Positions 43,048 through 60,118 of a stretch of 64,000 nt of DNA are shown piece after piece. Positions within the stretch are counted from its first letter, which is position 1, and the number at the start of each line of letters is the position of its first letter. The position numbers and the translations under genes were made by a program. The notes under the pieces were generated by a model. It made no database searches. It saw nothing but the letters and a program-made list of their open reading frames with translations, and was not told the origin of the DNA. This stretch comes from Halapricum salinum (GTDB lineage Archaea > Halobacteriota > Halobacteria > Halobacteriales > Haloarculaceae): contig NZ_CP031310.1 in assembly GCF_004799665.1 (NCBI RefSeq), positions 1,914,887-1,978,886 of the forward strand, written 5' to 3'.

Positions 43048-43091
43048 CAACCCTCTTTATGGACCCCGCCGCTATGACGTTTCGGGACTCA

Positions 43092-43171
43092 TAATGGTTA
43101 CTGTCGGTCTGTTCCACATCGACCCCCTGCCGTCGTTCGGTCGCAGTGGTACATCGCTACAGTAATCACTA
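43092..43171. repeat. 80-base element with terminal inverted repeats, copy 1
   Basis: The right end TACAGTAATCACTA (43158-43171) has an inverted partner TAATGGTTACTGTC (43092-43105), matching at 11 of 14 positions. The interior begins with GGTCTGTTCC. An element of exactly the same length and layout, with the same GGTCTGTTCC box, sits at 59820-59899. The right end runs up to the cgi121 stop codon at 43172. It contains no open frame. TA at both ends could be a target duplication. Confidence 0.75.
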
Positions 43172-43666
43172 TCACTTCTCGACGACCAGCAAGGCCACTC
43201 GCTCGCGGACCAGTTCCGACAGGTCCGCCCCGGTCGCGAGTTCGGGCTCGCCGAGGTCGAACCACTCGCGGACGCGATCGGGGTCGTACTCGCCCAGCGT
43301 CGCGGCGGATTCGTAGACGTCGAGTCTTCGAATAGCGTCGGCGGCTGCCGCCTCGTCGCCTGCTCCGTCCACGACGACGACTGCCGGGCATTCCCCGGTG
43401 TCGACGCCGAGTTCGAGCGCGCGGTTGATCTGGCGCCGACCCGCGGCGTACAGCAGGATCTCGACGGCGCGGTCGTCAGCGATATTTTCACCGCGTTCGA
43501 ACGCCCGATCGGTCAGTTCGACAGCTTTTTCGAGGTGTGCGCGGTCGACGACGTAGCGGGCGTCGAACGCCTGGATCGTGACACCGTGCTGGTCACCGAT
43601 CTTCCCGAGTCGGGCGAGGAAGCCATCGAGATCGTCGACGTTCAGGATTCCGTCGACCAGCTCCAT
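43172..43666 (-). CDS. cgi121: KEOPS complex subunit Cgi121
   Basis: A 164-residue protein. [21 protein letters not shown] and VTIQAFDARYVVDRAHLEKAVELTDRAFERGENIADDRAVEILLYAAGRRQINRALELG follow the Cgi121/TPRKB pattern, with AAGRRQINRAL the conserved tRNA-end-binding part. Cgi121 recruits tRNA to KEOPS, which makes the t6A37 modification with Kae1, Bud32 and Pcc1. Its start codon overlaps the stop of hel308 by one base, so the two are in one operon, an arrangement common in haloarchaea. Confidence 0.93.
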   Translation of the reverse strand: MELVDGILNVDDLDGFLARLGKIGDQHGVTIQAFDARYVVDRAHLEKAVELTDRAFERGENIADDRAVEILLYAAGRRQINRALELGVDTGECPAVVVVDGAGDEAAAADAIRRLDVYESAATLGEYDPDRVREWFDLGEPELATGADLSELVRERVALLVVEK

Positions 43667-45954: not shown

Positions 45955-45980
45955 TGAACCGTCGTTGGGCCTTCTTGAGG

Positions 45981-45990
45981 TTTAAATTGT
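45981..45990 (-). promoter_or_regulatory. TATA box of the hel308-cgi121 operon
   Basis: The minus strand reads ACAATTTAAA, 27-36 bases before the hel308 ATG at 45954, in the 84-base gap shared with the divergent ferredoxin gene. Confidence 0.6.
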
Positions 45991-46038
45991 CGCACTCCGG
46001 CCCGCCAGTGCTTTGTGTCTCTCGGTCGAACGCCCGGT

Positions 46039-46284
46039 ATGAAAGTCGAGTACGACTACGACACCTGTATCGGGATGTTCCAGTGTGTCGCCGAGTGGGA
46101 CGCCTTCGAGCGAGACGAGGACGCCGGCAAAGCCGTCCTGACCGACAGCGAGGAAGTCGAGGAGGATCTGTTCGTCCGCGAGGTGCCCGACGGCACGGAA
46201 CTCGACGCGAAGTTCGCCGCCCGGGCCTGCCCAGTCGACGCCATCACGGTCTACGACGACGACGGCGAGCAACTGATTCCCTGA
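46039..46284 (+). CDS. Ferredoxin, probably single [3Fe-4S] cluster
   Basis: An 81-residue protein starting MKVEYDYDTCIGMFQCVAEW at 46039. The cluster-binding series is Cys10-Ile-Gly-Met13-Phe-Gln-Cys16 and later CPVDAI (about residue 67). In [4Fe-4S] ferredoxins the pattern is CxxCxxC...CP; here the middle Cys is Met13, which is the usual sign of a [3Fe-4S] ferredoxin. There is no second cluster motif. It is divergent from hel308 and is followed by a lipoprotein gene. Probably a small electron carrier for a partner encoded elsewhere, such as a cytochrome P450 or dehydrogenase. Confidence 0.82.
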   Translation: MKVEYDYDTCIGMFQCVAEWDAFERDEDAGKAVLTDSEEVEEDLFVREVPDGTELDAKFAARACPVDAITVYDDDGEQLIP

Positions 46285-46347
46285 ACGGATCAAACGGCTA
46301 TTTGAGCATACGTCGACACTTTTTGAATCCCGTGTGTCGGTACGAGT

Positions 46348-47052
46348 GTGAACCGACGCCACTTCCTGGCTGGTACGGCCTCGGCCGCCGCGCTCCTGGC
46401 CGGCTGTGCTAGCAGCGGCGAATCGCCTCCGAACACCGACGATCCGGCGACCGACGACCCACCGAGTAGTGATCCGACGACCGAGCCGCCGACCACCGAA
46501 CCGCCGACGACAGAGCCGCCGACCACCGAACCGCCGACGACAGAGCCGCCGTCGGATCCGGCGGACGGTGCAGCGCTCGTCAACGGGAGCTTCGAGTCGG
46601 ATCTGGAGGGCTGGACGAAGGGCAAGGATCTGCCGGCCGACCCCAACAACCCCGACCAGAAGGTCGATTCGGAGATCAAGGTGACGACCGACCGCGCCTC
46701 CGAGGGCGATACTGGCCTGTTCGGCTTTCTCGACGGCAGCGCCGACGACGGAACCATCTGGGTCCAGCAGGAGGCCGACCTCTCGGAGGTCTCGACGCTC
46801 AAGGTCGACGGCTACAGCGAGCAGGAGTCGTTCAACACGGTCCTGCAGGTCGCGACCTACGCCGGCCCCGTCCCCGAGGACGGCCTCGTCGAGAGGGACT
46901 TCGACCGCAGCAACTCGCTGTGGGACCACGAAGGATGGAAGACCTACGAGTACGACGTCGACCACGACGGCGAGGGCCTGATCGCCGTCGGCCTCAACAT
47001 CGTCTGGGAGACCAACGCTGCGGGGGTCCTCGACAACGTGCGGCTGGAGTAG
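46348..47052 (+). CDS. Tat lipoprotein with Pro-Thr-Glu repeat linker
   Basis: A 234-residue protein using a GTG start at 46348. MNRRHFLAGTASAAALLAGC is a twin-arginine lipoprotein signal (lipobox LAGC, Cys20). A spacer of repeated TTEPP units (residues about 44-66) is encoded by an almost perfect 15-base tandem repeat (TTEPP encoded by ACNACNGANCCGCCG-type codons at 46480-46555). It leads to a C-terminal carbohydrate-binding-like beta-sandwich (VNGSFESDLEGWTKGKDLP, GEGLIAVGLNIVWETNAAGVLDNVRLE). That last domain resembles CBM-type galactose-binding folds in which a GWxxx motif starts the domain. Cell-surface carbohydrate or polymer contact is plausible. Confidence 0.78.
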   Translation: MNRRHFLAGTASAAALLAGCASSGESPPNTDDPATDDPPSSDPTTEPPTTEPPTTEPPTTEPPTTEPPSDPADGAALVNGSFESDLEGWTKGKDLPADPNNPDQKVDSEIKVTTDRASEGDTGLFGFLDGSADDGTIWVQQEADLSEVSTLKVDGYSEQESFNTVLQVATYAGPVPEDGLVERDFDRSNSLWDHEGWKTYEYDVDHDGEGLIAVGLNIVWETNAAGVLDNVRLE

Positions 47053-47112
47053 TCGCCCCGGAGAAAACCGACGGTAGCGGAGTCGACGAATCCATTGACA
47101 TGGTCCCCCTTC

Positions 47113-48324
47113 TCACACCAGCACCTCCACCTCGTAGCCGTGTCTCTTCAGCGCGTCGATCAACTCATCGACGTGCTCCGGCCCCTTGGTCTCCAGATCG
47201 AGTTCGACCTCGGCGTCGTTCATCGCGATGTCCCGCGACGCGCGGTCGTGCTCGATCGCGTAGATGTTGGCCTGCTGCTCTGAGATCACTTCGACGAGCT
47301 GTTCGAGCGACCCCGGCCGATCTTTGAGCACCGTCTTCAGTCGGAGATACCGCCCCGTCTCGATCAACCCGCGCATGATCACCGTCGTCAGGACGTTCAG
47401 GTCGATGTTACCACCACAGAGCGCGGGAACGATCACCTCGTCCTCCTCGAAGTCGAACTTCTCGAACAGCACCGCCGCCAGCGGGACCGCACCCGCCCCC
47501 TCGACGAGGGTCTTCGAGCGCTCCAGCAGTTTCGTCAGCGCGACCGCAATTTCGGAGTCGCTGACGGTGACGACCTCGTCGACGCGCTCGCGGATAATCT
47601 CGAAGGTCTGGGTTCCGACCTTGCGGGTCGCGATCCCGTCGGCGATTGTCTCGACGCCCTCGCGCTCGACGACCTCGCCTTTCTCCAGGGACTGGGCGAC
47701 GCTGGAGGCCCCTTCGGCCTGCACGCCGATCACGCGGATATCCTCGTCTTTGCCTTTCAGCGCCGTGGCGATTCCCGAAATCAGGCCACCGCCACCGATC
47801 GGGACGACGACGGTTTCGACGCCCGGCAGATCTTCGTAGATCTCCAGACCGATCGTCCCCTGACCGGCCATCACCATCGGGTCGTCGAAGGCGTGGACGT
47901 ACGTCCGCCCTTCTTCGCGGGCGATCTCGTGAGCGCGCTCGGACGCGGCGTCGTAGTCTTCACCCGAGAGAACGACCGACGCCCCGTAGTTGCGGGTGGC
48001 CTCGATCTTCGAGATGGGGGCGTGCTCGGGCATGACGATCTTCGAGTCGACGCCCATCCGCGTGGCCGCCAGCGCGACGCCCTGGGCGTGGTTGCCTGCG
48101 CTCGCGGTGACGACGCCGGCGTCTTTCTCGGCCTCGCTGAGCGTCGCGATCCGGTTGGTCGCGCCCCTGATCTTGAACGCGCCCGTCCGCTGGAACGTCT
48201 CTAGCTTCAGGTGGACAGTCGCGCCTGTCATCGACGAGAACGTGTGTGAGTAGTCCAGTGGCGTGTGCCGGGCGGTCTCGGCGACCCGATCGCGCGCAGC
48301 CAGCACGTCCGAAAGCGACAGCAT
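47113..48324 (-). CDS. ilvA: Threonine ammonia-lyase (biosynthetic/catabolic dehydratase)
   Basis: A 403-residue PLP enzyme with the ATG at 48324 (MLSLSDVLAARDRVAETARHTPLDYS); the 62 upstream codons are non-coding in character. The PLP lysine is Lys51 in GAFKIRGA, the phosphate loop is SAGNHAQGVALAA, and GGGGLISGIATAL follows. Residues from about 325 form an ACT domain (KTVLKDRPGSLEQLVEVISE) that normally binds an amino-acid effector. It deaminates threonine to 2-oxobutyrate. One ACT domain and this length fit the TdcB-with-ACT/IlvA-short group. Confidence 0.92.
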   Translation of the reverse strand: MLSLSDVLAARDRVAETARHTPLDYSHTFSSMTGATVHLKLETFQRTGAFKIRGATNRIATLSEAEKDAGVVTASAGNHAQGVALAATRMGVDSKIVMPEHAPISKIEATRNYGASVVLSGEDYDAASERAHEIAREEGRTYVHAFDDPMVMAGQGTIGLEIYEDLPGVETVVVPIGGGGLISGIATALKGKDEDIRVIGVQAEGASSVAQSLEKGEVVEREGVETIADGIATRKVGTQTFEIIRERVDEVVTVSDSEIAVALTKLLERSKTLVEGAGAVPLAAVLFEKFDFEEDEVIVPALCGGNIDLNVLTTVIMRGLIETGRYLRLKTVLKDRPGSLEQLVEVISEQQANIYAIEHDRASRDIAMNDAEVELDLETKGPEHVDELIDALKRHGYEVEVLV

Positions 48325-48506
48325 GGGGGAGAGTTGCGCCGCTGGGCTGTTAGGTGTGTGGGAAGGAGAGGGTGAAACGTGTGACAGCAAATAGAGACAC
48401 TGCCGGGATGAACATAAACCCGATGGAAGCAGACTGAAAGTGAAAGTGCAAGACTGAAGTCGGATGAGGCACGCGTCAGACGCGCGGCGAACGGCCGTCT
48501 GATAGA

Positions 48507-48896
48507 TCAATTAATCCTGATAGATGGCTCGCGGGAGTCGAGGTATCGCTCCACGCAATCCGGGAATGGCGCGGCGCTCGGCCAGTCGGCGTCAGCCGCG
48601 AGCGCGTCCGGGTCGCCGACGTAGACGGCGGCCCGCGTCGGTGTCTCGGCCCCCTCGACAGGCACCGAGACGCGGATGTAGAGTCCGCGATCGACACCCT
48701 CGTATGCGTCGAGGCGCTCGATCTCGTCGGTTTCGAGTAGCCGTCCGCCGACGCTGCCGCCGGGTGCGAGCGTCGGGTACTCGCCGTCGACGCGGTGGAG
48801 GCCCGAGAGGGTCGCGGTGCCGGCGTACGAGAAGTCGTCGAGAATCTGTGCGACGCGTCCGCTGTCGGTCAGCGTGCCGTAGACGAAGACGAGCAT
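48507..48896 (-). CDS. Gamma-glutamylcyclotransferase-like protein
   Basis: A 129-residue protein of the GGCT/AIG2 fold. MLVFVYGTLTDSGRVAQIL contains the YGTL substrate loop and GGSVGGRLLETDEIERLDAYEGVDRGLYIRVSVPV contains the catalytic Glu region (DAYEG). Members cyclise gamma-glutamyl amines or remain uncharacterised in archaea. It is transcribed toward the ilvA start, with 182 bases between, in which I see an ilvA promoter candidate (minus strand GGGTTTATGTTC near 48412-48420). The gene begins six bases from the left copy of the citrate synthase 3' duplication. Confidence 0.82.
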   Translation of the reverse strand: MLVFVYGTLTDSGRVAQILDDFSYAGTATLSGLHRVDGEYPTLAPGGSVGGRLLETDEIERLDAYEGVDRGLYIRVSVPVEGAETPTRAAVYVGDPDALAADADWPSAAPFPDCVERYLDSREPSIRIN

Positions 48897-48901
48897 CCCC
48901 C

Positions 48902-48975
48902 TACCGTTCGTCGACGGGGACGAACTCGGCGTCGCTCGGGCCGGTGTAGCGCGCTCGCGGGCGGATGAGACGGTT
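48902..48975. repeat. Duplicated citrate synthase 3' end (left copy)
   Basis: A 74-base sequence identical to 49187-49260, the last 74 bases of citrate synthase up to the final bases of its stop codon. It encodes, on the minus strand, the final 24 residues (from RLIRPRARYTGP) and then a TAG rather than TAA stop. It is separated from the right copy by the 211-base hairpin element. No functional protein is expected. Confidence 0.95.
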
Positions 48976-48976
48976 A

Positions 48977-49186
48977 TCTACCACTTTTTCCTCGTCGGGT
49001 ATCCTCGCTCACTGTGTTCGCTCGCGGGTCACTTCGCTCCCCGCTCGCGCGTACGAGACTCTCACTCCGCTCGAGTCTCGCGCTCGCTGCGGGTACCACT
49101 CCTCGCAAAAACTTGGGGAAAAAGGCTGCCGTCTCACGCTGTTCGACGGCAGTGAACCGACGGCTTCGCCGTCGGATATCTTCCAT
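48977..49186. repeat. CAAAAACTTGGGG hairpin element, copy A
   Basis: Lies exactly between the two 74-base direct repeats. From left to right: CCACTTTTT and TCGGGTATCCTCG; three palindromic modules, including GAGACTC (49055-49061) with GAGTCTC (49073-49079); the invariant box CGCAAAAACTTGGGGAAAAA (49104-49123); hairpin 1 (49126-49133 with 49145-49152, 8 bp); GTGAAC; hairpin 2 (49157-49164 with 49168-49175, 8 bp, TTC loop). Copies at 53102 and 61345 share the boxes but have different stem sequences. Confidence 0.88.
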
Positions 49187-50319
49187 TACCGTTCGTCGAC
49201 GGGGACGAACTCGGCGTCGCTCGGGCCGGTGTAGCGCGCTCGCGGGCGGATGAGACGGTTGTCCTCCTGATATTCGAGGACGTGCGCGATCCAGCCGCCG
49301 GATCGGCTCATCGCGAAGATCGGAGTGAAGAGGTCGATCGGGATGCCCATCTGGTAGTACGTCGACGCCGAGTAGAAGTCGACGTTCGGCGCGAGGTCCT
49401 TGTTCTCGGCCATATACTGCTCGATGGCCTGACTCATGGAGAACCACTTGTAGTCGCCGGCAGCCTCGCCGAGGTCGCGGGACTTCTCGCCGAGGATCTT
49501 CGCCCGTGGGTCCTTGACGTTGTAGACGCGATGGCCGAACCCGGGGACGCGCCGGCCGTTTTCGAGCGCGTCGTCGACCCATTCGACCGCCGACTTCTCG
49601 CTGTCGTCGACTTCCTTGAGCATCCGCATGACGTTCTGATTGGCCCCGCCGTGGAGGCCGCCCTTGAGCGTTCCAATCGCACTCGTCACCGAGGAGTAGA
49701 TGTCCGACATCGTCGAGGCGGTGACCATCGCGGCGAACGTCGAGGCGTTGATTCCGTGGTCAGCGTGGAGGACGAGGGCCATGTCGAACACCTCCGCGAG
49801 AGTATCGTCGGGCTCCTCTCCGTTGAGCATGTACAGGAAGTTCGCGGCGTGGCTCAGGTCTTCTCGCGGTTCGACGGGCGCTTCGCCGTCGCGCAGGCGT
49901 TTGTACGCGGCGACGATCGTCGGCATCTTCGCGGTGATCCGCATTCCGCGCGTGAGATCGGCCTCCCGGTCCCCGGGCTCATTGCCGGCGTCGTCGTAGG
50001 CCGAGAGCATCGACGTGGCGGTCCGGAGTGCGGCCATGGGGTTCTCTTCGGCCGCTGCGAGTTCCTCGACCGTATCGAGAACGCCGTCGTCGACGGCGCG
50101 GTAGCCGGCCATCTCCTCGGCGAACGTCTCCAGGTCGTCTGCGGCGGGCAACTCCCCGTGCCAGAGGAGATAGAGGACCTCCTCGTAGCTGGCCTCACGT
50201 GCCAGGTCCTCGATCGTGTAGCCCCTGTAGATGAGCCGTCCAGCGTCGCCATCGATGTCGCTCAGTGCTGATTCGGCGACGAGGACACCTTCCAGACCCT
50301 TCTTGAGGTCGTCTGACAT
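49186..50319 (-). CDS. gltA: Citrate synthase
   Basis: A 377-residue enzyme starting MSDDLKKGLEGVLVAESAL at 50319. Landmarks: catalytic-site VLHADHGINASTFAAM (first His), LKGGLHGGANQNVMRML, VPGFGHRVYNVKDPRAKIL (second His region), DFYSASTYYQMGIP with the catalytic Asp, and the terminal RARYTGPSDAEFVPVDER. It condenses acetyl-CoA and oxaloacetate at the entry to the citric acid cycle. Its last 74 bases are present twice (the extra copy at 48902-48975), with the hairpin element between; the gene itself is intact and of normal length. Confidence 0.97.
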   Translation of the reverse strand: MSDDLKKGLEGVLVAESALSDIDGDAGRLIYRGYTIEDLAREASYEEVLYLLWHGELPAADDLETFAEEMAGYRAVDDGVLDTVEELAAAEENPMAALRTATSMLSAYDDAGNEPGDREADLTRGMRITAKMPTIVAAYKRLRDGEAPVEPREDLSHAANFLYMLNGEEPDDTLAEVFDMALVLHADHGINASTFAAMVTASTMSDIYSSVTSAIGTLKGGLHGGANQNVMRMLKEVDDSEKSAVEWVDDALENGRRVPGFGHRVYNVKDPRAKILGEKSRDLGEAAGDYKWFSMSQAIEQYMAENKDLAPNVDFYSASTYYQMGIPIDLFTPIFAMSRSGGWIAHVLEYQEDNRLIRPRARYTGPSDAEFVPVDER

Positions 50320-50536
50320 ACCTTCTAGGTCTCGACCTTGGGGGAAAAACATTGTCGTTCGCCCGTCTGGTGACTGTCTGTTTCGGATCGAAACTAACAC
50401 AATTTCGGCTATTTCTCCGACGATCGGGCAGAATCGAGGGTGATATCTCGTCGAGTGGCTGGATTTGGCCGATTCTACCCCCCGATGCCGGCGTCCGGCC
50501 GAACGCTTTTTTCTACTGCCCGCGAATCGCCATCCT

Positions 50537-51748
50537 ATGGACGAGGAGGTCGGTTACGAACCGGTCAGCGTCAAGGACGTGCTGGCCGAGATGAAAGACA
50601 CCGCCGAGCTGCTGATCGATCTCTCCTACTCGGCGGTGTTGCTGGGCAGTGACGACATCGCCGAGGAAGTGCTCGACCTCGAAGCCAGGATGGACGTGCT
50701 CCACCTCCGCGCCCGGATGAGCCTCTTGATGGCCGCGCGCAATCCCGAGGACGCGGAGGCGCTCGCGCCCGTTCTCGGCGTCGTGGGTGCGGCCGAAAAG
50801 ATCAGCGACGCTGCCGGCGATATCGCCAAGATCGTCCTCGAAGACATCGGCCTGCCCGAAGCGATGCGGGCTGCCCTTCCGGAGGCGATCGAGACACTCG
50901 TCCGGGCCACAGCCGTCGACGACTCTGCGTACGTCGGTCGAACGCTCGGAGCGATCAACCTCGAAACCGAGACCGGCGTCCGCGTTATCGCGATCCGCCG
51001 CGGCGGCGAGTGGCTACTCAACCCCGACGCCGAGACGACGATCGAGGCCGGCGATGTCGCGCTCTTGCGGGGACCTACCGACGGACTCGACAGGGTCTAC
51101 ACCGACGTGACCGGTGAGACCTACGAGACGCTCGAGCCGCCGACCGAGGAGTTCGACGACCTCGAACGCGCGGTCGACTCGATCGTCCTGATGAAGAACA
51201 TGAGCGAACTCGCGGTCGATCTGGCTTACGGATCGGTCCTGTTCGACAGCGAGGCCGTCGCCGAAGAGGTCCGCGAGCTAGAGGCCGAGGTCGACGCCCT
51301 CCAGTCGCGCTTCGAGGCCTGGACCCTCCGCTCGGCGAGTCGTGTCGACGAGCCGATCAACCTCCGGGGGTTGGTCCACCTCGGCCGCTCGACCGAGGTC
51401 ATCTCCGACGCCGCCCTGGAGATCAGCGAGGGCGTCCTCATGGGGATCGGCACGCATCCAGTCGTCGCCGCGGCCGTCGAGGAGAGCGACGAGGTGATCG
51501 TCCGGGTATCGGTCGAACCCGACAGTGACCTCGCGGGCACGACGCTGGGCGAGACGGCAGTCAAGACAGAGACGGGAATGCGTATCATCGCGGTCCGCCA
51601 CGCCGGCCGCGAGAGCCAGCGCACCGGGCGCGAAGGTAGCGACTGGGTCATCTCGCCGACGGCGGCGACCGAGATCGAAGGTGGAGATATCCTTCTCGCG
51701 AAAGGCACTCGAAGCGGCGCGTCGCGACTCTCGGAACTGGCGTCGTAG
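50537..51748 (+). CDS. Tandem PhoU/TrkA-C regulatory protein
   Basis: A 403-residue soluble protein starting MDEEVGYEPVSVKDVLAEM at 50537. It is internally duplicated. Residues about 10-125 form a PhoU-like helical bundle (LLIDLSYSAVLLGSDDIAEEVLDLEARMDVL), then a TrkA-C/RCK-C beta domain (VGRTLGAINLETETGVRVIAIRRGGEW). Residues about 218-320 repeat the PhoU part (LAVDLAYGSVLFDSEAVAEEVRELEAEVDAL) and 325-400 the TrkA-C part (LAGTTLGETAVKTETGMRIIAVRHAGRE). Such proteins are annotated potassium channel or transporter regulators; a Trk or Kch partner is not adjacent. A promoter may lie in the 217 bases upstream. Confidence 0.86.
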   Translation: MDEEVGYEPVSVKDVLAEMKDTAELLIDLSYSAVLLGSDDIAEEVLDLEARMDVLHLRARMSLLMAARNPEDAEALAPVLGVVGAAEKISDAAGDIAKIVLEDIGLPEAMRAALPEAIETLVRATAVDDSAYVGRTLGAINLETETGVRVIAIRRGGEWLLNPDAETTIEAGDVALLRGPTDGLDRVYTDVTGETYETLEPPTEEFDDLERAVDSIVLMKNMSELAVDLAYGSVLFDSEAVAEEVRELEAEVDALQSRFEAWTLRSASRVDEPINLRGLVHLGRSTEVISDAALEISEGVLMGIGTHPVVAAAVEESDEVIVRVSVEPDSDLAGTTLGETAVKTETGMRIIAVRHAGRESQRTGREGSDWVISPTAATEIEGGDILLAKGTRSGASRLSELAS

Positions 51749-51764
51749 GCGACGCTCGCTGCTA

Positions 51765-52028
51765 TCAGAGATCTTTTGCCAGACGTCGCGCTCGGAGCGC
51801 GACCAGGATCGTCGTCACGAGCGCACCGAGCGCCAGCAACAACGACAGGGCGAGCCCGACGTACCAGACACTCGATCCGAACCCGGCCTCGCTGGGGAGG
51901 CCGACGAAGGTCGCGAAGACGACGATCGTGACGACAGTCGCGAACACGAATCCCTGAAGCGCGTGCTTGCGGACGTTCAGTGCGTCCAGAAAGCGTGCCC
52001 GACCTGACTCGGCTCGATCGTTCGACAC
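51765..52028 (-). CDS. Two-span haloarchaeal membrane protein
   Basis: An 87-residue protein. No ATG is available near the expected start; the GTG at 52028 gives MSNDRAESGRARFLDALNVRKHALQGF, a natural cytoplasmic N-terminus. Two spans follow (VFATVVTIVVFATFV and VWYVGLALSLLLALGALVTTILVAL), with GLPSEAGFGSS between them and a basic end (RARRLAKDL). A family of this shape is common in haloarchaea (I recall DUF7536). Convergent with the PhoU/TrkA-C gene, divergent from the desuccinylase-like gene. Confidence 0.68.
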   Translation of the reverse strand: MSNDRAESGRARFLDALNVRKHALQGFVFATVVTIVVFATFVGLPSEAGFGSSVWYVGLALSLLLALGALVTTILVALRARRLAKDL

Positions 52029-52144
52029 GCCCGCTCGTAGGAGCGACAGCGTAAAAATCGCACCGATACAGCGTCCACGCGTGCTTGCAACCGCTACAGA
52101 CGGAACCGAACCGCCTAAGACGGTCCGTCTGCCCAATTTTAGTA

Positions 52145-53101
52145 ATGACGAGTCTCGGTACGGCGAGTGCGGCCCCGGGTGAGATGGACACGGGGCGGCT
52201 GTGGGTCGGCGAGACGCGCGACGGGACCGACGTCGGGCTGCCAGTGGCAGTGATCAACGGCGCTGATTCGGGCAAGACTCTCTACGTCCAGGCCGCCAGT
52301 GATGGCGACGAACTCAACGGCGTCGGCGTCCTCCAGCGGTTCGTCCCGCAGCTCGATCCCACGGAGCTGTCGGGGACGATCCTGATCACGGGGATCGTCA
52401 ACTACCACGCTTTCCAGGTCGCCGAGCACCGCAACCCCATCGACGACACCAAGATGAACCGGGCCTACCCCGGTGACGCCGACGGGACGTCGACCGAGCG
52501 GATCGCCGCCGCGACCTTCGACGCCGCCACGCGGGCGGATCTGGTGGTCGACCTCCACCAGGGGTCGACCAGCCGGATGATCAACGAGGTCCGCGTGCGG
52601 TGTGGGCGGCGCCACCGTCGCCACCAGGCCTGTCTCGAACTTGCGAAGGTCTTCGACTGCGGCCACGTCCTCGATCAGAAAGGCCCCGACGGCCAGCTCG
52701 CCCGCGCCGCCCCCGACGAAGGAATCCCGACGATCGACCCGGAACTGGGCGGCTGTGTCGGCTGGGACGAACAGAGTATCCAGTACGGTGTCCAGGGGCT
52801 GTGGAACGTGCTCGACTACTACGATTTCCTCCAGGGAGAGGTCGAACTCACCACGCAAACGCGGGCCAGCGGCTTCGACCAGTACGGAGCGCCCGCCGGC
52901 GGGCTCGTCGACTTCAAAGTCGATCTCGGTGAGGAAGTCACGCGCGGCGATACCCTCTATACGATCACCGACGTCTTCGGCTCCAAGAAGGATGTCGTGA
53001 CCGCCGACTCGAACGGGATTCTCTGGCGGACTCGGCGCCTTCCGCAGGTTGCGACCGGCGAGTACGTCTGTTCGGTCGGGACGAACGTGGACACCTACTA
53101 G
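52145..53101 (+). CDS. Succinylglutamate desuccinylase/aspartoacylase family protein
   Basis: A 318-residue zinc carboxypeptidase-fold protein starting MTSLGTASAAPGEMDTGRLW at 52145. The zinc site appears as GIVNYHAFQVAEHRNPIDDTKMNRAYPGD and LVVDLHQGSTSRMINEVRVR, with the catalytic Glu in PTIDPELGG. The C-terminal beta domain resembles a biotinyl/lipoyl-like lobe (GGLVDFKVDLGEEVTRGDTLYTITDV), typical of the DUF2817/AstE-ASPA proteins in archaea. Expected to hydrolyse an N-acyl amino acid; the substrate is unclear. The element copy B starts one base after its stop codon. Confidence 0.87.
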   Translation: MTSLGTASAAPGEMDTGRLWVGETRDGTDVGLPVAVINGADSGKTLYVQAASDGDELNGVGVLQRFVPQLDPTELSGTILITGIVNYHAFQVAEHRNPIDDTKMNRAYPGDADGTSTERIAAATFDAATRADLVVDLHQGSTSRMINEVRVRCGRRHRRHQACLELAKVFDCGHVLDQKGPDGQLARAAPDEGIPTIDPELGGCVGWDEQSIQYGVQGLWNVLDYYDFLQGEVELTTQTRASGFDQYGAPAGGLVDFKVDLGEEVTRGDTLYTITDVFGSKKDVVTADSNGILWRTRRLPQVATGEYVCSVGTNVDTY

Positions 53102-53256
53102 ACCACTTAGTTTCCACTTTTTACTGCGTCGGGTTCGAGTCCCGCCTCCGGCGCGCTCGAACCTCTCCTTGCAAAAACTTGGGGAAAAACGACCTGCTGA
53201 CTCAGCCTTCGGCTTCGTCAGCAGTGAAACGCCGCCTCCGGCGGCGTATGCTGGTC
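53102..53256. repeat. CAAAAACTTGGGG hairpin element, copy B
   Basis: Directly follows the TAG of the desuccinylase gene. It contains CCACTTTTT (53113-53122) and GTCGGGTTCGAGTCC, then one palindrome (TTCGAG with CTCGAA), the box TGCAAAAACTTGGGGAAAAA (53170-53189), hairpin 1 (53194-53201 with 53217-53224, 8 bp), GTGAAA, hairpin 2 (53230-53236 with 53240-53246, 7 bp, TCC loop) and GTATGCTGG. It is shorter than copies A and C because fewer palindromic modules precede the box. Confidence 0.87.
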
Positions 53257-53312
53257 CTGATGCCGCCAGCAGAACACGCCGCTTAAACGCGCCAGCCACG
53301 TACGACGGGCCA

Positions 53313-54440
53313 ATGAGTCGATCGGGCGAGTTCTGTCCCCGCTGTGGCGACCCCATCGAGCGCGAGTCCGGGGTCGAGTTACCGGACAGCCCCGGCCAGC
53401 GCGACCCCGACAGCGTGCTCTGTGACGCCTGCTACTTCGACGAGTTCGACCTCGTGGACGCGCCCGACCGGGTTCACATCCGCGTCTGTGCCCGCTGTGG
53501 GGCAGTCCACCGCGGGAATCGCTGGGTCGACGTCGGAGCCGAAGACTACACCGACATCGCGGTCGAGGCCGTCTCGGAGGCCCTCGGAGTGCACGTCGAC
53601 GCCGAGAGCGTCTCCTGGCAGGTCGCCCCCGAACAGGTCGACGCCACGACGATCCGGATGCACTGCCAGTTCTCGGGCGTGATCCGCGAGACGCCGGTCA
53701 CCGAGGAGGTCGTCGTGCCCGTCAAGATCGCCAAGGAAACCTGCAAGCGCTGCGGGAAGATCGCCGGCGGCTCGTTCGCGAGTATCGTCCAGATCCGCGC
53801 CGACGAGCGCACGCCCACGAGCGATGAACTCGAACGCGCCCAGGCGATCGCCGAGGCCTACGTCGCCGAACGCGAGGAGACCGGTGATCGGGACGCCTTC
53901 ATCACCGAGGTCGGCGAAGTCGAGGAGGGCCTGAACATGAAAATTTCGACCAACAAACTCGGCCAGGGGATCGCCCAGCACGTCGTCCGCGAACTCGGCG
54001 GCTCGTTTTCGGACTCCGAGCGGCTGATCTCCGAGGACAGCGACGGCAACGAACTCTACCGGGTGACGTACGCCGTCCGCCTGCCCAGATACCGCTCGGG
54101 CGAGATCATCGACCCCGAAGACGGCGACGGTCCGGTGCTCGTCAAGAGCGTTCAGGGGAATCTCAAGGGGCTTCGACTGGCCTCGGGCGAGCAGTACGAG
54201 GCCTCCTTCGAGGACGAGGACGCGCCTGATGCCGAGCGCCTGGGGATGGTCGAGGATGGCGTCGAGACGACGCTCGTCGCGGTCGAGGACGACCACGCCG
54301 TCCAGGTGCTCGATCCCGAGACCTACGAGACGAAGTCGATCCCCCGACCGGACTACCTCGATACCGAGGCCGATCAAATTCCGGTGCTGAAGAGTCGTGC
54401 TGGACTGCACGTGCTCCCAGCTGACGACTCGACGGTCTGA
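53313..54440 (+). CDS. nmd3: NMD3-related ribosome biogenesis protein
   Basis: A 375-residue protein starting MSRSGEFCPRCGDPIE at 53313. Several CxxC pairs (CPRCG, CDACY, CARCGAVH, CKRCGK) form the NMD3 zinc-finger region, followed by GGSFASIVQIRADERTP and ADQIPVLKSRAGLHVLPAD at the end. Eukaryotic NMD3 is the 60S export adaptor; the archaeal protein is thought to bind the large subunit during maturation. The upstream TTAAACG at 53283-53289 is a TATA-like box 24-30 bases before the ATG, so the transcript is probably leaderless and begins downstream of the repeat element. Confidence 0.9.
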   Translation: MSRSGEFCPRCGDPIERESGVELPDSPGQRDPDSVLCDACYFDEFDLVDAPDRVHIRVCARCGAVHRGNRWVDVGAEDYTDIAVEAVSEALGVHVDAESVSWQVAPEQVDATTIRMHCQFSGVIRETPVTEEVVVPVKIAKETCKRCGKIAGGSFASIVQIRADERTPTSDELERAQAIAEAYVAEREETGDRDAFITEVGEVEEGLNMKISTNKLGQGIAQHVVRELGGSFSDSERLISEDSDGNELYRVTYAVRLPRYRSGEIIDPEDGDGPVLVKSVQGNLKGLRLASGEQYEASFEDEDAPDAERLGMVEDGVETTLVAVEDDHAVQVLDPETYETKSIPRPDYLDTEADQIPVLKSRAGLHVLPADDSTV

Positions 54441-54495
54441 GTCGGGCCCGAATCGACCCGCCATGATTTAGTACTGAGCCGATCGTTCTGGTACT

Positions 54496-54717
54496 ATGGC
54501 AGAGAATCCGATAGAACAGGGCCTGCTCACGCGGACGATCTTCGGTCTCGTCATTATCTTCCTCATCTCTCTCGGTGGCGGGACTGTCGCGACCGTGTTC
54601 CTGGAGTGGGACGTCCCGTACGGTGCGTGGATCGGCGTCGTGGTCGGCGGTGGGCTGGTTCTGATCGCGTTTGTGATACTGTACAATCGATACGATGCCC
54701 AGTTCGAGAGCCAGTAG
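54496..54717 (+). CDS. Small two-span membrane protein
   Basis: A 73-residue protein: MAENPIEQGLLTRTIFGLVIIFLISLGGG leads into span 1, a short EWDVPYGAW extracytoplasmic loop follows, then span 2 (IGVVVGGGLVLIAFVILY) and a polar tail. ATG spacing and codon use are good. It lies between nmd3 and taw2 on the same strand with gaps of 55 and 45 bases. Function unknown; possibly part of the same transcript. Confidence 0.65.
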   Translation: MAENPIEQGLLTRTIFGLVIIFLISLGGGTVATVFLEWDVPYGAWIGVVVGGGLVLIAFVILYNRYDAQFESQ

Positions 54718-54762
54718 TGCCGTATCGAAACCGTTTCTCTCTGTGATCCCGTTGGACCGATA

Positions 54763-55818
54763 ATGAACGACGACCGGCTGGCGATCGTCGTCGCCAAGCC
54801 CCGCGCTCAGGACGTCATCGACGCCCTGCAGGAGGAGGGCGTCTACGACGCCGACCGCAGCGTCGCCGAACACGGCGCGGACGCCGTCGCGATCCCTGTG
54901 ACGGAAGCGCCCGAGACCGTCGCTTACCGCGAGGTCGTCCAGCAGGTCGGCCAGCCCCGCCTCCGCACGCTCGAAGACCACCTTCGAGAGCGGGGCTGGA
55001 CCGACGAGGAACTCGACACTGCACCCGGGTCCTGGGCGGTCATCGGCTCTGTGGTTCTGGTCGACATCGGCGACGCACCCCGACCCGAGGAGGTCGGCGC
55101 GGCCCTCCTCACGATGCACGGCGAGGCCGACACGGTGCTGGCTCGCGGCCCCATCTCGGGCACCCACCGTGAACCCGACGTCGAGGTCTTGGCTGGGGAG
55201 GGCGACACCCAGACTGTGCACCGCGAGCACGGGATCGCGTACGGACTCGACCTCGCCGAGGTCATGTTCTCGCCGGGCAACAAGGCCGAGCGCAAACACA
55301 TGGGCGACACAGTACGGAAGGGTGAGCGCGTCCTCGACATGTTCGCGGGAATCGGCTACTTCACGCTCCCGATGGCCGCCGCGGGCGCGGAGGCGATCGC
55401 CATCGAGCGCAATCCGACAGCGTTCCAGTTTCTGCTCGAAAACGCGATGCGAAACGGGGTTCAGGACCACGTGCAGGCGTACCGCGCGGACAACCGCGAC
55501 GTCCTCGCGGAGGGGCTCGACTCGTTCGGCGAGGCTTCGACTGTGGATCGGATCGTCATGGGCTACTACGACGCGACGGAACCGGACGACGAGGGCGGCT
55601 ACACCTATCTCGATCCCGCCATCGACGCGCTCGCACCCGGCGGGATCATCCACGTTCACGAGGCGACGCCCGAGACTCTCGTTTTCGAGCGCCCGATCGA
55701 ACGGATCGAGGCGGCCGCTACGGCCCAGGACCGAACTGTGGAGGTTCTCGATACCCGCCGCGTCAAAGGCTACAGCGAGGGCGTCGCCCACGTCGTCGTA
55801 GACGCTCGACTGGAGTGA
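54763..55818 (+). CDS. taw2: tRNA(Phe) wyosine aminocarboxypropyltransferase Taw2
   Basis: A 351-residue Trm5/Tyw2-family protein. The catalytic Rossmann core starts at about residue 185: ERVLDMFAGIGYFTLPMAAAGAEAIAIERNP, then ADNRDVLAEG, VDRIVMGYYDAT and GGIIHVHEATPE. The MGYY...HVHEA combination, instead of the NPP of Trm5, points to Taw2, which transfers the 3-amino-3-carboxypropyl group of SAM to the wyosine base at G37. The N-terminal region (residues 1-110) is the Trm5-like D1 domain. Part of a run of same-strand RNA-maturation genes that begins with nmd3. Confidence 0.85.
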   Translation: MNDDRLAIVVAKPRAQDVIDALQEEGVYDADRSVAEHGADAVAIPVTEAPETVAYREVVQQVGQPRLRTLEDHLRERGWTDEELDTAPGSWAVIGSVVLVDIGDAPRPEEVGAALLTMHGEADTVLARGPISGTHREPDVEVLAGEGDTQTVHREHGIAYGLDLAEVMFSPGNKAERKHMGDTVRKGERVLDMFAGIGYFTLPMAAAGAEAIAIERNPTAFQFLLENAMRNGVQDHVQAYRADNRDVLAEGLDSFGEASTVDRIVMGYYDATEPDDEGGYTYLDPAIDALAPGGIIHVHEATPETLVFERPIERIEAAATAQDRTVEVLDTRRVKGYSEGVAHVVVDARLE

Positions 55819-55881
55819 CACTGAGCGCGAGGCTTCGTGTCGTCGCGAAAAACCTAATTGTGCTGCTCTCGGACTGCCCGT

Positions 55882-55965
55882 ATGGACCGTCAACAGATCG
55901 TCGCGATCGTTCTGGTCGTGCTCATGCTCGGCTCGTCGATCGCGTACGCCGTGACCCTGATCTGA
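55882..55965 (+). CDS. 27-residue hydrophobic peptide
   Basis: ATG at 55882 opens MDRQQIVAIVLVVLMLGSSI, ending AYAVTLI and a TGA at 55963-55965. A single hydrophobic helix follows a charged MDRQQ head. I recall closely similar short ORFs in many haloarchaea, usually beginning MDRR or MDKRQ and ending near YA, which is unusual for chance sequence. It is downstream of taw2 by 63 bases. Function unknown; a membrane-inserted micropeptide is the natural guess. Confidence 0.6.
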   Translation: MDRQQIVAIVLVVLMLGSSIAYAVTLI

Positions 55966-56110
55966 CACTGCTCGACGAACTCGGGCTGGTTTCGAGTTCC
56001 GATTCATCTCGGATCGGAATTATCGTCCTCCGGTTCGCGACTCCACTCCCGTCTGACCAGAATCCGGCCTTCTTCGACGCGATCCTCGAACAGCGATCGA
56101 TCCTCCTCCC

Positions 56111-56596
56111 TCAGAACAGTCCAGCGACGCCGCTGAGGACGGCTCCAAGCCCGAACAGCCCGACGATCGCTCCGACGCCGAGCGCGAGCTTCTGCCAGCG
56201 CGTCCACCGGAACAGTTCCGACTCCGAGAGCGTCGAGACGACGAACAGCCCGTCACCTTCGGGTGGCTGGATCACGCCGTCCGACGGTCCCGTGACCGTT
56301 CCGCCCTCGGCCGTCGGGTGCACGTCGCCGAGGACGTACACCGAGTCGCCGTCCTGAACCGTCCCCTCGTAATAGCGCCGGTCGCCGTCCTTGTTGCCCA
56401 TATCGACACCGACCGACTGGTCGAACTGCGGCCGGAGATTCGGCTGCTGGACGACGAAGTCCTCGATGTGATCCGGCGTCGACTTGATCGCACGTGCCAC
56501 CCGGAACTTCCCGTATCCATAGTACCCGATTCCACCCCCGATCAGGAGCAGCACACCACCGATAACGATACTTGCAACAGACACGCCTGTGAGCAT
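56111..56596 (-). CDS. GIDE-domain-like membrane protein
   Basis: A 161-residue protein. The N-terminal span (VASIVIGGVLLLIGGGIGYYGYGKF) is followed by a beta-rich domain (VARAIKSTPDHIEDFVVQQPNLRPQ and SVYVLGDVHPTAEGG), and a second span ends the chain (LALGVGAIVGLFGLGAVLSGVAGLF). This resembles haloarchaeal proteins annotated with the GIDE domain, found in mitochondrial E3 ligases, but no RING finger is present. Function unknown. Confidence 0.65.
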   Translation of the reverse strand: MLTGVSVASIVIGGVLLLIGGGIGYYGYGKFRVARAIKSTPDHIEDFVVQQPNLRPQFDQSVGVDMGNKDGDRRYYEGTVQDGDSVYVLGDVHPTAEGGTVTGPSDGVIQPPEGDGLFVVSTLSESELFRWTRWQKLALGVGAIVGLFGLGAVLSGVAGLF

Positions 56597-56626
56597 TCGG
56601 TCCCCGGACGTGAACGTTTCTGTTCG

Positions 56627-58399
56627 CTACTCCGTGTCCCAGACGTCGGCCATCGGGCTCCGTTTCGAGCGACTTCCCGACCGTGACGAGCCACCCGAAC
56701 TGGAGGATTGCGATCGCGTCCGCGACTGCCCGCGTGAGCGTCGCGACCGCGTGCTCGTCCCGGCCGTCGCTGCACCGGGATCGAACTGGGGGAGATCCGG
56801 GGCCGTCATGCGGTCGACCTGCTCGGCGAACCACTCGGGCATGTCCGTTCGAGCGCGCTCGAACAGGTCCAGCAGCGAGTCGTCCCCGAGGTATGTCGCC
56901 CCGTAGTCGTCGGGCGCACGAACGACCCGTCCACAGGCCTGGATCACGGTTCTGAGGGCCGAGCGGTAGTACCAGCCCCACTGGCCGTCTTCCAGTCGCC
57001 GGGCGACTCTTGAATCCCGGGTGTTCGGATAGGGGGCCTTGCAGAGCAGTTGCCAGCGACAGAGATCACCCTCCAGGTCCAGGGCTTCTTCCATCTTCAC
57101 CGAGAGGAAGACGTCGGGGTCGTCGCTGCGCTGCCAGGCCGCCAGTTGCCCGTCCCGGTCTTCTTTCTCGTGGCTTCGAATCCGTGAGCCGACACCGAAC
57201 TCCGACAGCAGGCGCGCCAGTTCGTCTTTGATCGCGTAGGAGTGGCAGTGCACCAGCCCTTTCTCGTCGGGGTGGTGGGCCATGATCCGCACCAGAACAC
57301 GAGCGATCTTCGGCAGCGTCTCCTCGCGGTGTTCGTAGGTCATCTTTCCCTGGGTGACGTCGTACAGCGGCCGGTTCTCGACGGGGAAGGTGTGGGGAAC
57401 GTCCACCAGCGCAACGCGTTCGGGATCGAGCCCGACGTTCCGGCAGAAAGCGTCCTTGTTGAGGATCGTGGCAGAGAGGAGTGCGAATTTGTTGCCACGA
57501 TCCCAGACAGTATGGCCCAGGAAGCGCTCGGGGTCGAGTGGTTTGATCGTTACTGACGATCCTTCGCCGTCGGGCTGGTCGACGACCCACGTCGTCGCGG
57601 CCTCGGGGTCGCGATACTCCTCGCGGAACCACTTCAGGTCCGACCGCAACTGCTGGAGGCGGTCGCGTTCTGCGGCCTCTTCGGGGTCGATCTCGGCGTT
57701 GCCTCTGAGTTCGGAGAGCCGGCGGTCGGCAGCTTGAATCAACCCTTGCGCGTAGGCGGCGGCGTCCTCCAGATCCTCGACGTTCGGGGGTTTGCGGGCG
57801 TCCCACACGGGAACGGTATCGGGTCGCAGGTCGATGGTGGCGTACATCTCGGCCCACTCGCCCAGACCGTGGGCCTCGTCGATGACGACGACGTCGCGGG
57901 TGCCGAAGACATCGCTGCCGGCGGTCTGCATGAAATAGGCGAGGGTCATCGCCGCGATCCGGCGGTTGGCCGCGATCGCCCTGTCAGAAAAGTACGGACA
58001 GCGGTGCTTGACCTGACAGTCGAACTCCCGCTCGCGGACGCAGGGTGCCTGGTCGACGGGAGTGTCGGTCTCTCCCGGCAGAATACAGTCGTAGTTGTTC
58101 TTCCCGCGGATGATCGACAGATCGTCGAGCAGCGAATCGGAGGCCACGTCGTCCAGTTGCGAGACCTGCGGCGTCGTGTAGAAGGCGTCGATCGGCTGGC
58201 TCGCGGAGGCCTGACTGCCCTCACGAGCACAGCCGGCGATGGCCCGCGCCAGGAGGGACTTGCCGCTGCCGGTCGGTGCGCGAACGAGGACGACGTCGTT
58301 GCCGGCCTCGAACGCCGCGCGGATGTCCGACAGGGCCTGTTTCTGGGCTCCGCGGTATTCGGGCGCAGGGAAGGCTTCCTCGATACGAGACGGGTCCAC
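56627..58399 (-). CDS. XPD/DinG-like superfamily 2 DNA helicase
   Basis: A 590-residue helicase. I place the start at a GTG at 58399, giving MDPSRIEEAFPAPEYRGAQKQAL; the open frame continues upstream for 90 unlikely codons. Walker A is APTGSGKSLLARAIAG, the iron-sulfur-like Cys group appears as DCILPGETDTPVDQAPCVREREFDCQVKHRCPYF, motif II is VVIDEAHGLGEW, and motif VI is IQACGRVVRAPDDYG. The C-terminal tail is a basic, Ser/Arg-rich low-complexity run (residues about 545-580). The Cys pattern suggests an FeS-containing 5' to 3' helicase as in XPD; cellular role unproven. Confidence 0.88.
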   Translation of the reverse strand: MDPSRIEEAFPAPEYRGAQKQALSDIRAAFEAGNDVVLVRAPTGSGKSLLARAIAGCAREGSQASASQPIDAFYTTPQVSQLDDVASDSLLDDLSIIRGKNNYDCILPGETDTPVDQAPCVREREFDCQVKHRCPYFSDRAIAANRRIAAMTLAYFMQTAGSDVFGTRDVVVIDEAHGLGEWAEMYATIDLRPDTVPVWDARKPPNVEDLEDAAAYAQGLIQAADRRLSELRGNAEIDPEEAAERDRLQQLRSDLKWFREEYRDPEAATTWVVDQPDGEGSSVTIKPLDPERFLGHTVWDRGNKFALLSATILNKDAFCRNVGLDPERVALVDVPHTFPVENRPLYDVTQGKMTYEHREETLPKIARVLVRIMAHHPDEKGLVHCHSYAIKDELARLLSEFGVGSRIRSHEKEDRDGQLAAWQRSDDPDVFLSVKMEEALDLEGDLCRWQLLCKAPYPNTRDSRVARRLEDGQWGWYYRSALRTVIQACGRVVRAPDDYGATYLGDDSLLDLFERARTDMPEWFAEQVDRMTAPDLPQFDPGAATAGTSTRSRRSRGQSRTRSQSSSSGGSSRSGSRSKRSPMADVWDTE

Positions 58400-58452
58400 A
58401 CTCAAGTGGGAGAGCGGGGCCGCCCTAAACGTAGCGGTCGTCGGCGTAACAG

Positions 58453-58459
58453 TTTTATT
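58453..58459 (+). promoter_or_regulatory. TATA box of the lipoprotein-pilin fusion gene
   Basis: TTTTATT at 58453-58459 lies 23-29 bases before the ATG at 58482, in the 82-base gap shared with the divergent helicase gene. Confidence 0.55.
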
Positions 58460-58481
58460 CCTACTCCGGGCTGCTTCTTGT

Positions 58482-59819
58482 ATGGCAGAACGACGCGTAA
58501 CGAGGCGGACAGCACTCAAGACTGGGGCCGGAGCAGGCCTTCTCACGGCACTGACTGGCTGTCTGGACAGTGGGTCGAGCAGCGACAACGGCGACGGCCC
58601 GAGTGGTGGTGGCGGCGGCAGCGTAGACGTCGTCCCGTCGAACGCGAGCGCGGTCGTCTCTCTCGACACCGGGGCGTTGCTCGACGGCGAACTCGTCCGC
58701 CGGAGCTTCGACCGGGCACTGGAACTCGTCCAGCAGCAGCGCTCGGCCGAGCTCCCGATCGAGAGTTACGAGCAGGCGCTCTCGATGGCCGAGTCGGAGA
58801 TCGGCCTCGATCCCAGGGGTCTGCAGTGGGCGCAGTTCTTCTCGGATCCGTCTGGATCGACTGCCGGACTGCTCTTCGAGGCCGACTGGAGCGAGGAGGA
58901 GATCGTTACGGCTGTCGAGAGTGAGGGGCCCACGCTCACCAGTCGCTCCGAGAGCGGTCATACGATCTACGCCGACGAGGAGGGGAGCGAGGGGATGGTC
59001 GCGCTCGCCGACGGCCGCTTCCTGCTGGCCGAGAGCGCGACGATCGACTCGGTCCTTGCGGTCCTCGCAGGTGACGCCGAGCCAGTCAGCGGGGCGCTCG
59101 CGGACGCCTACGCCGACACCGCTGGGATGATGCGTTTTGCGGCTGACGTCAGTGACGCCGATCTCGGTGGGGACGAGCAGCTGTCCGCGGTCGACGACGC
59201 AACGATGGTTTCGGGCTCGCTCACCGCCAGCGGTGACACGCGAACGTTTCGGATGGACGTGTCGATGGCCGACTCGGATTCGGCCGCCCGGATGGCCGAG
59301 CAGGCCAACGCCGCGCTCACGCTCGCCGAAGGGCAGCTCGACCAGTACCCGGAAGTCGAGCAGTACATCGAGAACCCAGAGCAGCACCTCGATGCAGTCG
59401 GGGTTACACAGTCGGGCTCGACCGTGACGGTCACCTACGGCGGGAGCGTCGACCTGGTCGCCGAAGGTGGGATGCTCATCCTCGCGGCCGTCGTCGGCTC
59501 GTTCGTGCTGGGGATTGGCGAGAGCACTGCGCCCGTCGCTCCGCAAGCGTCGTTCAACTGGGACTACGACGGCGAGTCCGTGACCATTACTCACCAGGCT
59601 GGCGACGTGATCGACGGTCCGAATCTCTACGTCCGCGGATCCACCGGGAACGGAACCATCGACAGGTCGTGGGCAGCGTACGGCGTGACCGAGGTCTCCG
59701 CGGGGACGAGCGTTACCGTCGAGGACGTTTCCGACGCGTACGAACTCATGCTCGTCTGGGTCGGTGATAGCGATGGGAATTCTGCAGTTCTCTCCGAGAA
59801 CCTGGGCCCCGACGCCTGA
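58482..59819 (+). CDS. Tat lipoprotein with a C-terminal pilin-like segment
   Basis: A 445-residue protein. MAERRVTRRTALKTGAGAGLLTALTGC is a twin-arginine lipoprotein signal. A Gly/Ser linker and an alpha/beta domain follow (residues about 48-315, with SNASAVVSLDTGALLDGELVRRSF and GMVALADGRFLLAESATIDSVLAVL). Residues about 326-340 form a hydrophobic span (LILAAVVGSFVLGIG), and the rest (APQASFNWDYDGESVTITHQAGDVIDGPNLYVRG) is like the globular domain of archaeal DUF1628 pilins. The combination of a lipoprotein anchor with a mid-chain pilin-like helix is not one I know as a named family. The gene ends directly at the 80-base element copy 2. Confidence 0.8.
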   Translation: MAERRVTRRTALKTGAGAGLLTALTGCLDSGSSSDNGDGPSGGGGGSVDVVPSNASAVVSLDTGALLDGELVRRSFDRALELVQQQRSAELPIESYEQALSMAESEIGLDPRGLQWAQFFSDPSGSTAGLLFEADWSEEEIVTAVESEGPTLTSRSESGHTIYADEEGSEGMVALADGRFLLAESATIDSVLAVLAGDAEPVSGALADAYADTAGMMRFAADVSDADLGGDEQLSAVDDATMVSGSLTASGDTRTFRMDVSMADSDSAARMAEQANAALTLAEGQLDQYPEVEQYIENPEQHLDAVGVTQSGSTVTVTYGGSVDLVAEGGMLILAAVVGSFVLGIGESTAPVAPQASFNWDYDGESVTITHQAGDVIDGPNLYVRGSTGNGTIDRSWAAYGVTEVSAGTSVTVEDVSDAYELMLVWVGDSDGNSAVLSENLGPDA

Positions 59820-59899
59820 TAGTGATTATTGTAGGTCTGTTCCGGATCGATCGCCCGACAGCGGACGGTCGTACCGGTAAATCGTTACAATAATCACTA
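59820..59899. repeat. 80-base element with terminal inverted repeats, copy 2
   Basis: TAGTGATTATTGTA (59820-59833) and TACAATAATCACTA (59886-59899) are perfect 14-base inverted repeats bounding 52 bases. It starts right after the TGA of the preceding gene and ends six bases before the stop of the convergent zinc-finger gene, so it fills the intergenic space. Same length and GGTCTGTTCC box as copy 1 at 43092. It could act as a bidirectional terminator hairpin as well as a mobile element. Confidence 0.82.
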
Positions 59900-59905
59900 C
59901 GACCA

Positions 59906-60118
59906 CTACTCGACTGTCAGTGCTTCGACGTCCGCGGCGGTCGCCTCGCGGTCGTCGGGCAGTCGCTCGACGCAGTCGAAACAGAGGAAGTGCTCGCTGC
60001 CGTCGGCCAGTTCGAGGTCGACGCCCCCGCTGGAGCCGCCGGCTTGACTCCAGAAGTCGCTGATTCCGCCGGCAATACGGGTCCGCTCGTCACAGCCGTC
60101 ACAGCGCTGTGTCGACAT
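59906..60118 (-). CDS. Small zinc-finger protein, DUF7561-like
   Basis: A 70-residue protein starting MSTQRCDGCDERTRIAGGI at 60118. Two Cys pairs (CDGC at residues 6-9 and CFDC near residue 46) enclose a Gly/Ser-rich loop (WSQAGGSSGGVDLEL). The tail is acidic. This matches a widespread haloarchaeal small zinc-binding family (I recall it as DUF7561); function unknown. The ATG at 60118 is better than the one 20 codons upstream because the family begins at MSxxxCDGC. Confidence 0.7.
   Translation of the reverse strand: MSTQRCDGCDERTRIAGGISDFWSQAGGSSGGVDLELADGSEHFLCFDCVERLPDDREATAADVEALTVE

Follow-up and report, generated by a model that had tools for sequence, protein, structure and literature searches.

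The 80-bp segment at positions 59820-59899 of the window, i.e. the whole 64,000-nucleotide stretch of the Halapricum salinum genome analysed here, is best read as one copy of a non-autonomous, MITE-like DNA element of fixed size (80 bp), built as an interrupted hairpin and mobilised in trans, a reading that we consider likely. As such, it is an atypical MITE-like element that stands out by a distinct structure and by an enrichment at stop codons.

Window copies and architecture of the element

The original prediction of two 80-base copies, at 59820-59899 and 43092-43171, held for coordinates and length alike, and a covariance model placed the element in the window at exactly these two places (E 2.6e-23 and 4.5e-17). 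The end palindrome is perfect over 14 bp in the first copy and matches at 11/14 in the second, as had been described, and the arms in fact reach 15 bp, since pair 15 is G-C, A-T or C-G depending on the copy among 28 copies of the window genome (G000). Each copy was also correctly seen to adjoin a stop codon, namely the TGA of a pilin-like gene (59817-59819) and that of cgi121 (43172-43174). The features are as follows.

59820..59899, + strand: 80-bp mobile hairpin element, copy 1 (from sequence, BLASTN and covariance model)
59820..59834, + strand: copy 1, left 15-nt arm (outer stem)
59885..59899, + strand: copy 1, right 15-nt arm (outer stem)
59835..59841, + strand: copy 1, 5' side of the conserved 7x7 internal loop, GTCTGTT
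59878..59884, + strand: copy 1, 3' side of the 7x7 internal loop, TAAATCG
59842..59877, + strand: copy 1, inner hairpin (4-bp stem, 2x2 loop, 10-bp stem, 4-nt tip)
59817..59819, + strand: copy 1, left target duplication TGA, which is the stop codon of the pilin-like gene
59900..59902, no strand: copy 1, right target duplication, degenerated to CGA
43092..43171, + strand: 80-bp mobile hairpin element, copy 2 (older, arms 11/14)
43089..43091, no strand: copy 2, left 3-bp target duplication (TCA)
43172..43174, - strand: copy 2, right duplication (TCA), which is the TGA stop of cgi121
58482..59819, + strand: host gene of copy 1, Pilin_N-domain protein, 445 aa
43172..43666, - strand: host gene of copy 2, CGI-121 (KEOPS subunit family)

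The genes around the two copies encode the Pilin_N-domain protein, CGI-121, a DUF7561 protein and an alpha/beta hydrolase, and the copies lie at gene ends, including between convergent genes, as judged from gene calls based on crude codon scores. Regarding simple patterns, the ends (up to 3 mismatches) matched the window 5 times for 0.62 expected and the interior 9 times for 3.03 expected, no shuffle reaching as high in either case. A further element-like stretch, a 98-bp inverted repeat at 6873-6970 with TCA on both sides, was rejected as a family member as it is single-copy in the genome; it is probably a chance occurrence or a relic. None of the Rfam family models matched window positions 43000-60100 up to E 1.

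From the outside in, the element consists of a 15-bp stem, a 7x7 loop beginning with GTC, a 4-bp stem, a 2x2 loop, a 10-bp stem and a 4-nt tip. In the window genome, the set of 28 copies comprises all BLASTN finds together with the second window copy, nearly all of exactly 80 bp; 93.7% of their paired cells are complementary, double changes occur in 83 cells against 25.2 in shuffles, and the covariance model used throughout (R1) was built from them. Farther afield, 40 copies from 26 genomes and six taxonomic families, hand-picked among the best-scoring order-wide matches of the model, all have a length of 79-80 bp. Once the two distant copies of 79 nt are left aside, the other 38, of exactly 80 bp, align without any gap with five copies from the window genome (alignment A4, 43 sequences). 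Over the whole element, this alignment holds 197 double-change cells against 58.1 in shuffles (covariation score 0.445 against 0.153), and the inner hairpin alone holds 49 against 12.4 (0.261 against 0.097), so that coordinated base changes between lineages affect the arms as well as the inner stems. The 15-bp arms are 95.8% paired, with Watson-Crick pairs in 610/645 outer cells, and the left arm comes in 32 different versions among the 43 sequences. Within the loop, position 18/63 is unpaired, as C.C or C.T, in 43/43 sequences and position 16/65 is G.G in 35/43. Among recently active copies, some carry an arm mismatch, as observed in G136, a genome with a burst of copies.

These patterns bear on the possibility of an ordinary MITE of an IS5/IS1031-like DDE insertion sequence, where only the terminal repeats would matter, transposase and ends would coevolve and the inner pairing would be incidental. 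Short terminal repeats, the lack of an ORF, a 3-bp TNA duplication and the end signature TA[C/G]NG-N5-TGTM, found across several arm types, all agree with it, and the covariation of the outer arms, taken alone, could also follow from coevolution of end repeats and transposase. Such coevolution would nonetheless hardly suffice, because the inner stems, away from the ends, covary on their own and the loop stays unpaired. Considering also the length kept at 79-80 bp across six taxonomic families, and that no parent insertion sequence was found in another burst genome (G001) or at the sampled transposase loci, an ordinary MITE appears unlikely. Simple palindrome correction during replication would, for its part, tend to erase the unpaired loop.

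A functional RNA strand would be expected to show more G-T than A-C mismatches in its stems. The two are about equally frequent in three sequence sets (18 vs 20, 36 vs 41, and 25 vs 31 with p 0.50), and complementarity is therefore maintained at the level of DNA and not in the RNA of one strand, so that an RNA hairpin selected on one strand was rejected.

Target duplication, empty sites and stop codons

Among 109 distinct copies, 93 are bordered by identical 3-bp flanks (50 TCA, 40 TGA, 2 TAA and 1 TTA), all of the form TNA and TSA in 90/93, and the flanks differ in the remaining 16/109; in the hand-picked distant set, the duplication is present in 31/40. Once oriented, the target reads roughly GAC-TGA-G. 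The TA target duplication of an IS630/mariner-type MITE, as originally proposed, is thus not borne out, as the duplication is the 3-bp TGA/TCA and the TA belongs to the element itself. In one taxonomic family (f4), four copies (L298, L299, L301 and L302) whose arms read TAGTAGCGTNTGCAA or nearly so have the flanks CTA ... TA(R/T), which suggests that these four duplicated 2 bp, TA, of a CTAG-like target rather than the 3-bp TSA.

Empty sites were found for both window copies. At 59820, the pilin-like gene of two relatives (G002 and G004) ends in one TGA, and in G002 the gap between the aligned flanks is shorter by 83 bp, i.e. 80+3; at 43092, G003 has a single TCA. The covariance model detected no element at the loci corresponding to both window sites in five relatives, the flanking DNA having diverged in some. 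Besides, comparison of the sister Halomicrobium plasmids pLC1Hm-01 and pHmuk01 uncovered two insertions in pLC1Hm-01 without counterpart, one of window type and the other from a sister family, in flanks about 91-95% identical, with exactly one TGA or TCA left at the empty site in pHmuk01. A 3-bp stagger at insertion is thereby shown. The mobility that the original prediction had envisaged, and which hinged on further copies and empty sites, is thus upheld by additional haloarchaeal copies, matching flanks and empty sites.

The same data weigh on the reading of the element as an immobile bidirectional terminator or 3'-end RNA element kept by host selection. Its location where genes end, convergent ones included, as well as the strong hairpin predicted at the window element, would suit this role, against which stand the target duplications, the empty sites, the burst copies, the absence of the element from either window site in all five relatives, the lack of a T-run after the stem and the equal numbers of G-T and A-C mismatches; we regard it as extremely improbable. 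A mobile element of this kind may still influence the 3' ends of transcripts in a secondary way.

Each of the two window copies occupies a TGA stop codon, and stop codons are enriched as insertion targets in the family at large. Of the copies with a TSA duplication, 35 lie at an in-frame TGA stop, 50 in intergenic sites and 1 inside a gene call, a count that leaves out 19/105 copies without TSA duplication and relies on gene calls by crude codon scores. Compared with non-coding control TSA sites (215 at stops vs 1462 intergenic), the odds ratio is 4.8 (p 3e-10), and with control sites in a C-TGA context (97 vs 372) it is 2.7 (p 1.5e-4). For 28/31 distant copies, against 204/704 control TSA sites, the TGA closes an open frame of 60 codons or more (p 1.5e-12), and the same test gave 27/40 copies in G136 (p 1.4e-6); taken alone, the window genome (9/19, p 0.07) and G001 (6/13, p 0.15) were not significant. 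On pLC1Hm-01, the independent annotation places 7/15 copies or remnants exactly next to the end of an annotated CDS. An orientation bias of the element relative to the TGA, suspected in G001, turned out to be absent overall.

Landing in a TGA would duplicate the stop codon (TGA/TAG...), the host gene keeping its end. As this duplication leaves the stop of the gene intact, the enrichment may partly reflect survival rather than targeting, and persistence at gene ends would follow from the duplicated stop together with the target preference.

Candidate enzymes, mode of transposition and related short repeats

An autonomous insertion sequence with the same ends, which the original prediction had taken into consideration, was searched for and not found in G001 or at the sampled loci, and more generally no mobilising gene emerged from the arm pattern in G001, the end pattern in the sequences analysed or the sampled PF01609 loci. 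In G001, a finished and 99%-complete genome, the burst arm with up to 2 mismatches revealed no autonomous element: the matches either form pairs spaced by about 79 or 160 bp, or are single ends, or belong to other short elements, and those single ends that were inspected come from truncated or nested copies. Such ends with a TNA duplication were likewise lacking at the PF01609 transposase loci sampled in G000, G001, G002, G005, G058, G079, G136 and G140, the nested case of L152 aside. At this latter locus of G001, a transposase appeared to be enclosed in a perfect element of 1.49 kb, complete with the expected ends and a duplicated TCA, but it was rejected as the autonomous parent, as it is another insertion sequence with ends of its own (CATCCGTCTTTAGCTAAG) and a 10-bp duplication, located inside a sister hairpin element; this insertion sequence spans L152 1071-2473, its duplication is CTTTACGAAC, and five near-identical copies are present in the genome. 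Several other candidates were dismissed: the gene between the copies at G000 1193528 and 1194808 is by sequence a homologue of a general transcription factor, a truncated end in G136 (L109) is followed by ordinary genes and is a relic, as is a truncated end on pLC1Hm-01, and the left ends of the IS701 transposases common to the burst genomes G136 and G140 do not match.

Target duplications of the 3-bp TNA type are a feature of the Tourist MITEs of PIF-Harbinger and of the IS1031 group of the IS5 family. By analogy, the 3-nt stagger and TNA duplication of the hairpin element suggest a DDE transposase of IS5/IS1031-like type; neither a related transposase nor common ends were seen among the loci sampled.

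REPs are linked to Y1 enzymes, and a single-strand transposition of REP/IS200 type, with the folded strand as substrate of a Y1 (HUH) enzyme, would account for an end-to-end hairpin with conserved mismatches and for strand-symmetric pairing. Y1_Tnp occurs in 92/142 genomes and is absent from the finished window genome and from G061, both rich in copies, which also sets the element apart from REP/RAYT systems; loss of the enzyme is possible there. Y1 enzymes were rejected as mobiliser because they do not track the copies of the element. IS200/IS605 enzymes are not known to produce a clean 3-bp duplication such as that of the 80-bp family. IS605-type elements in Haloquadratum likewise lack duplications, as far as the accessible part of the source tells (PMC3119063). 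All in all, a Y1-driven mode is very improbable.

Coming back to the MITE-like element mobilised in trans, the enzyme supplied would recognise the ends plus the folded loop, make a cut staggered by 3 nt in a palindromic target of 5 bp (about C-TSA-G) and join the element to it, the hairpin or cruciform bringing together ends that are only 80 bp apart; pairing would have been kept despite sequence change because the fold joins these ends. A bolder proposition, which we hold to be rather unlikely, is that of a Halobacteriales-wide class of transposable DNA whose folded hairpin or cruciform substrate would be read by a dedicated enzyme through its shape and loop, and not through its end sequence, with in-frame TGA stops preferred and rebuilt on insertion.

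No paper recognisable as describing an 80-bp hairpin family appeared in the portion of the open-access literature searched. The closest general category is that of prokaryotic MITEs, which the accessible part of one account presents as short and non-coding, with terminal inverted repeats, target duplication, many intergenic copies and a presumed mobilisation in trans (PMC10969869). Terminal inverted repeats and target-site duplication are both present in the 80-bp element, which differs from MITEs as portrayed there by its fixed size, its interrupted end-to-end hairpin, its covarying inner stems, its enrichment in stop codons and the lack of any parent insertion sequence found in G001 or at the sampled loci.

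Among haloarchaeal repeats, the nearest description is that of the SMRs (short mobile repeats) of Haloquadratum walsbyi, which include the 80-bp HqIRS41. Like the present family, they are very short, their inverted ends show no relation to known transposons and their mobiliser is enigmatic; in the available part of the report, they are without target duplications and insert into other mobile elements (PMC3119063). The 80-bp family has TNA duplications and is enriched in stop codons, which sets it apart from HqIRS41 by description only. The PATEs of Haloquadratum are also palindromic, transposase-free and haloarchaeal; according to the same partial source, they originate from elements of IS605 type and show neither terminal inverted repeats nor duplications (PMC3119063), whereas the 80-bp family has both terminal inverted repeats and a duplication. 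Finally, REPs, i.e. GTAG- and CGTC-tagged palindromes, and REPINs are small palindromic repeats near gene ends, and some GTAG REPs even supply a stop codon; they differ in being bacterial, tagged and 20-40 bp long, and no 3-bp duplication is mentioned in the part of the source accessible (PMC3733652).

If the favoured reading is correct, haloarchaea carry widespread and very small transposable hairpins that survive by insertion into, and duplication of, stop codons. Their study would test whether a DNA fold, beyond end sequence, is needed for the transposition of an element too short for easy looping, and the ends together with the GTC loop offer a concrete bait for finding the enzyme. The family may likewise be relevant to how short repeats of haloarchaea are mobilised, a process termed enigmatic (PMC3119063).

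Distribution, bursts and sister elements

BLASTN with the 80 bases, the search that had been suggested, located 27 places in the window genome (one 3.45-Mb contig), and R1 about 51 at E<=1e-3, once hits on both strands were merged and counting one of only 40 bp. R1 matched 96/146 genomes of the taxonomic family and, order-wide (E<=1e-6), 105/293 genomes, 39/87 genera and eight families, the per-genome copy numbers of both scans being lower bounds, since no more than 32 candidates per genome were scored in the family and 15 in the order. Window-type elements are also carried by plasmids of Haloarcula, Halapricum, Halocatena and Halococcus (8 records); in viral contigs, a pattern scan for the element gave 0 matches.

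In G136, one arm with its flank accounts for 140 forward and 134 reverse matches, the copies being mostly near-identical and bordered by perfect duplications, and G001 harbours a burst with quite different arms (TACGGTCGGTTGTAA), which suggests that the family has been recently active in places. Partial copies exist in G136 at L122 (about 2057) and L109 (1981), one cut within the inner stem and one beside an assembly gap. In the window genome, two copies in the same orientation (2959489-2959568 and 2959779-2959858) lie 210 bp apart, with a lone similar right end beyond the pair (L010, about 2037).

G001 further contains 77-bp elements with other interiors (TACTGCCGGCTGTAA...) and a compensated-arm variant (TACTGGTGGCTATAA...). 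This sister family, with TNA flanks, is found on plasmids of Haloarcula, Halomicrobium and Haloplanus (10 records), and together with the window-type elements it forms a superfamily. Nested insertions into other elements are few, the targets being mostly stop codons and intergenic sites. In G001, 77-bp sister elements are nested, at a duplicated TAA, in 79-bp elements of the first kind; the same TAA was hit in two different copies (loci L206 1501-1660, L233 1501-1660 and L210), and L220 displays a tandem arrangement of sister element-TGA-element-TGA.
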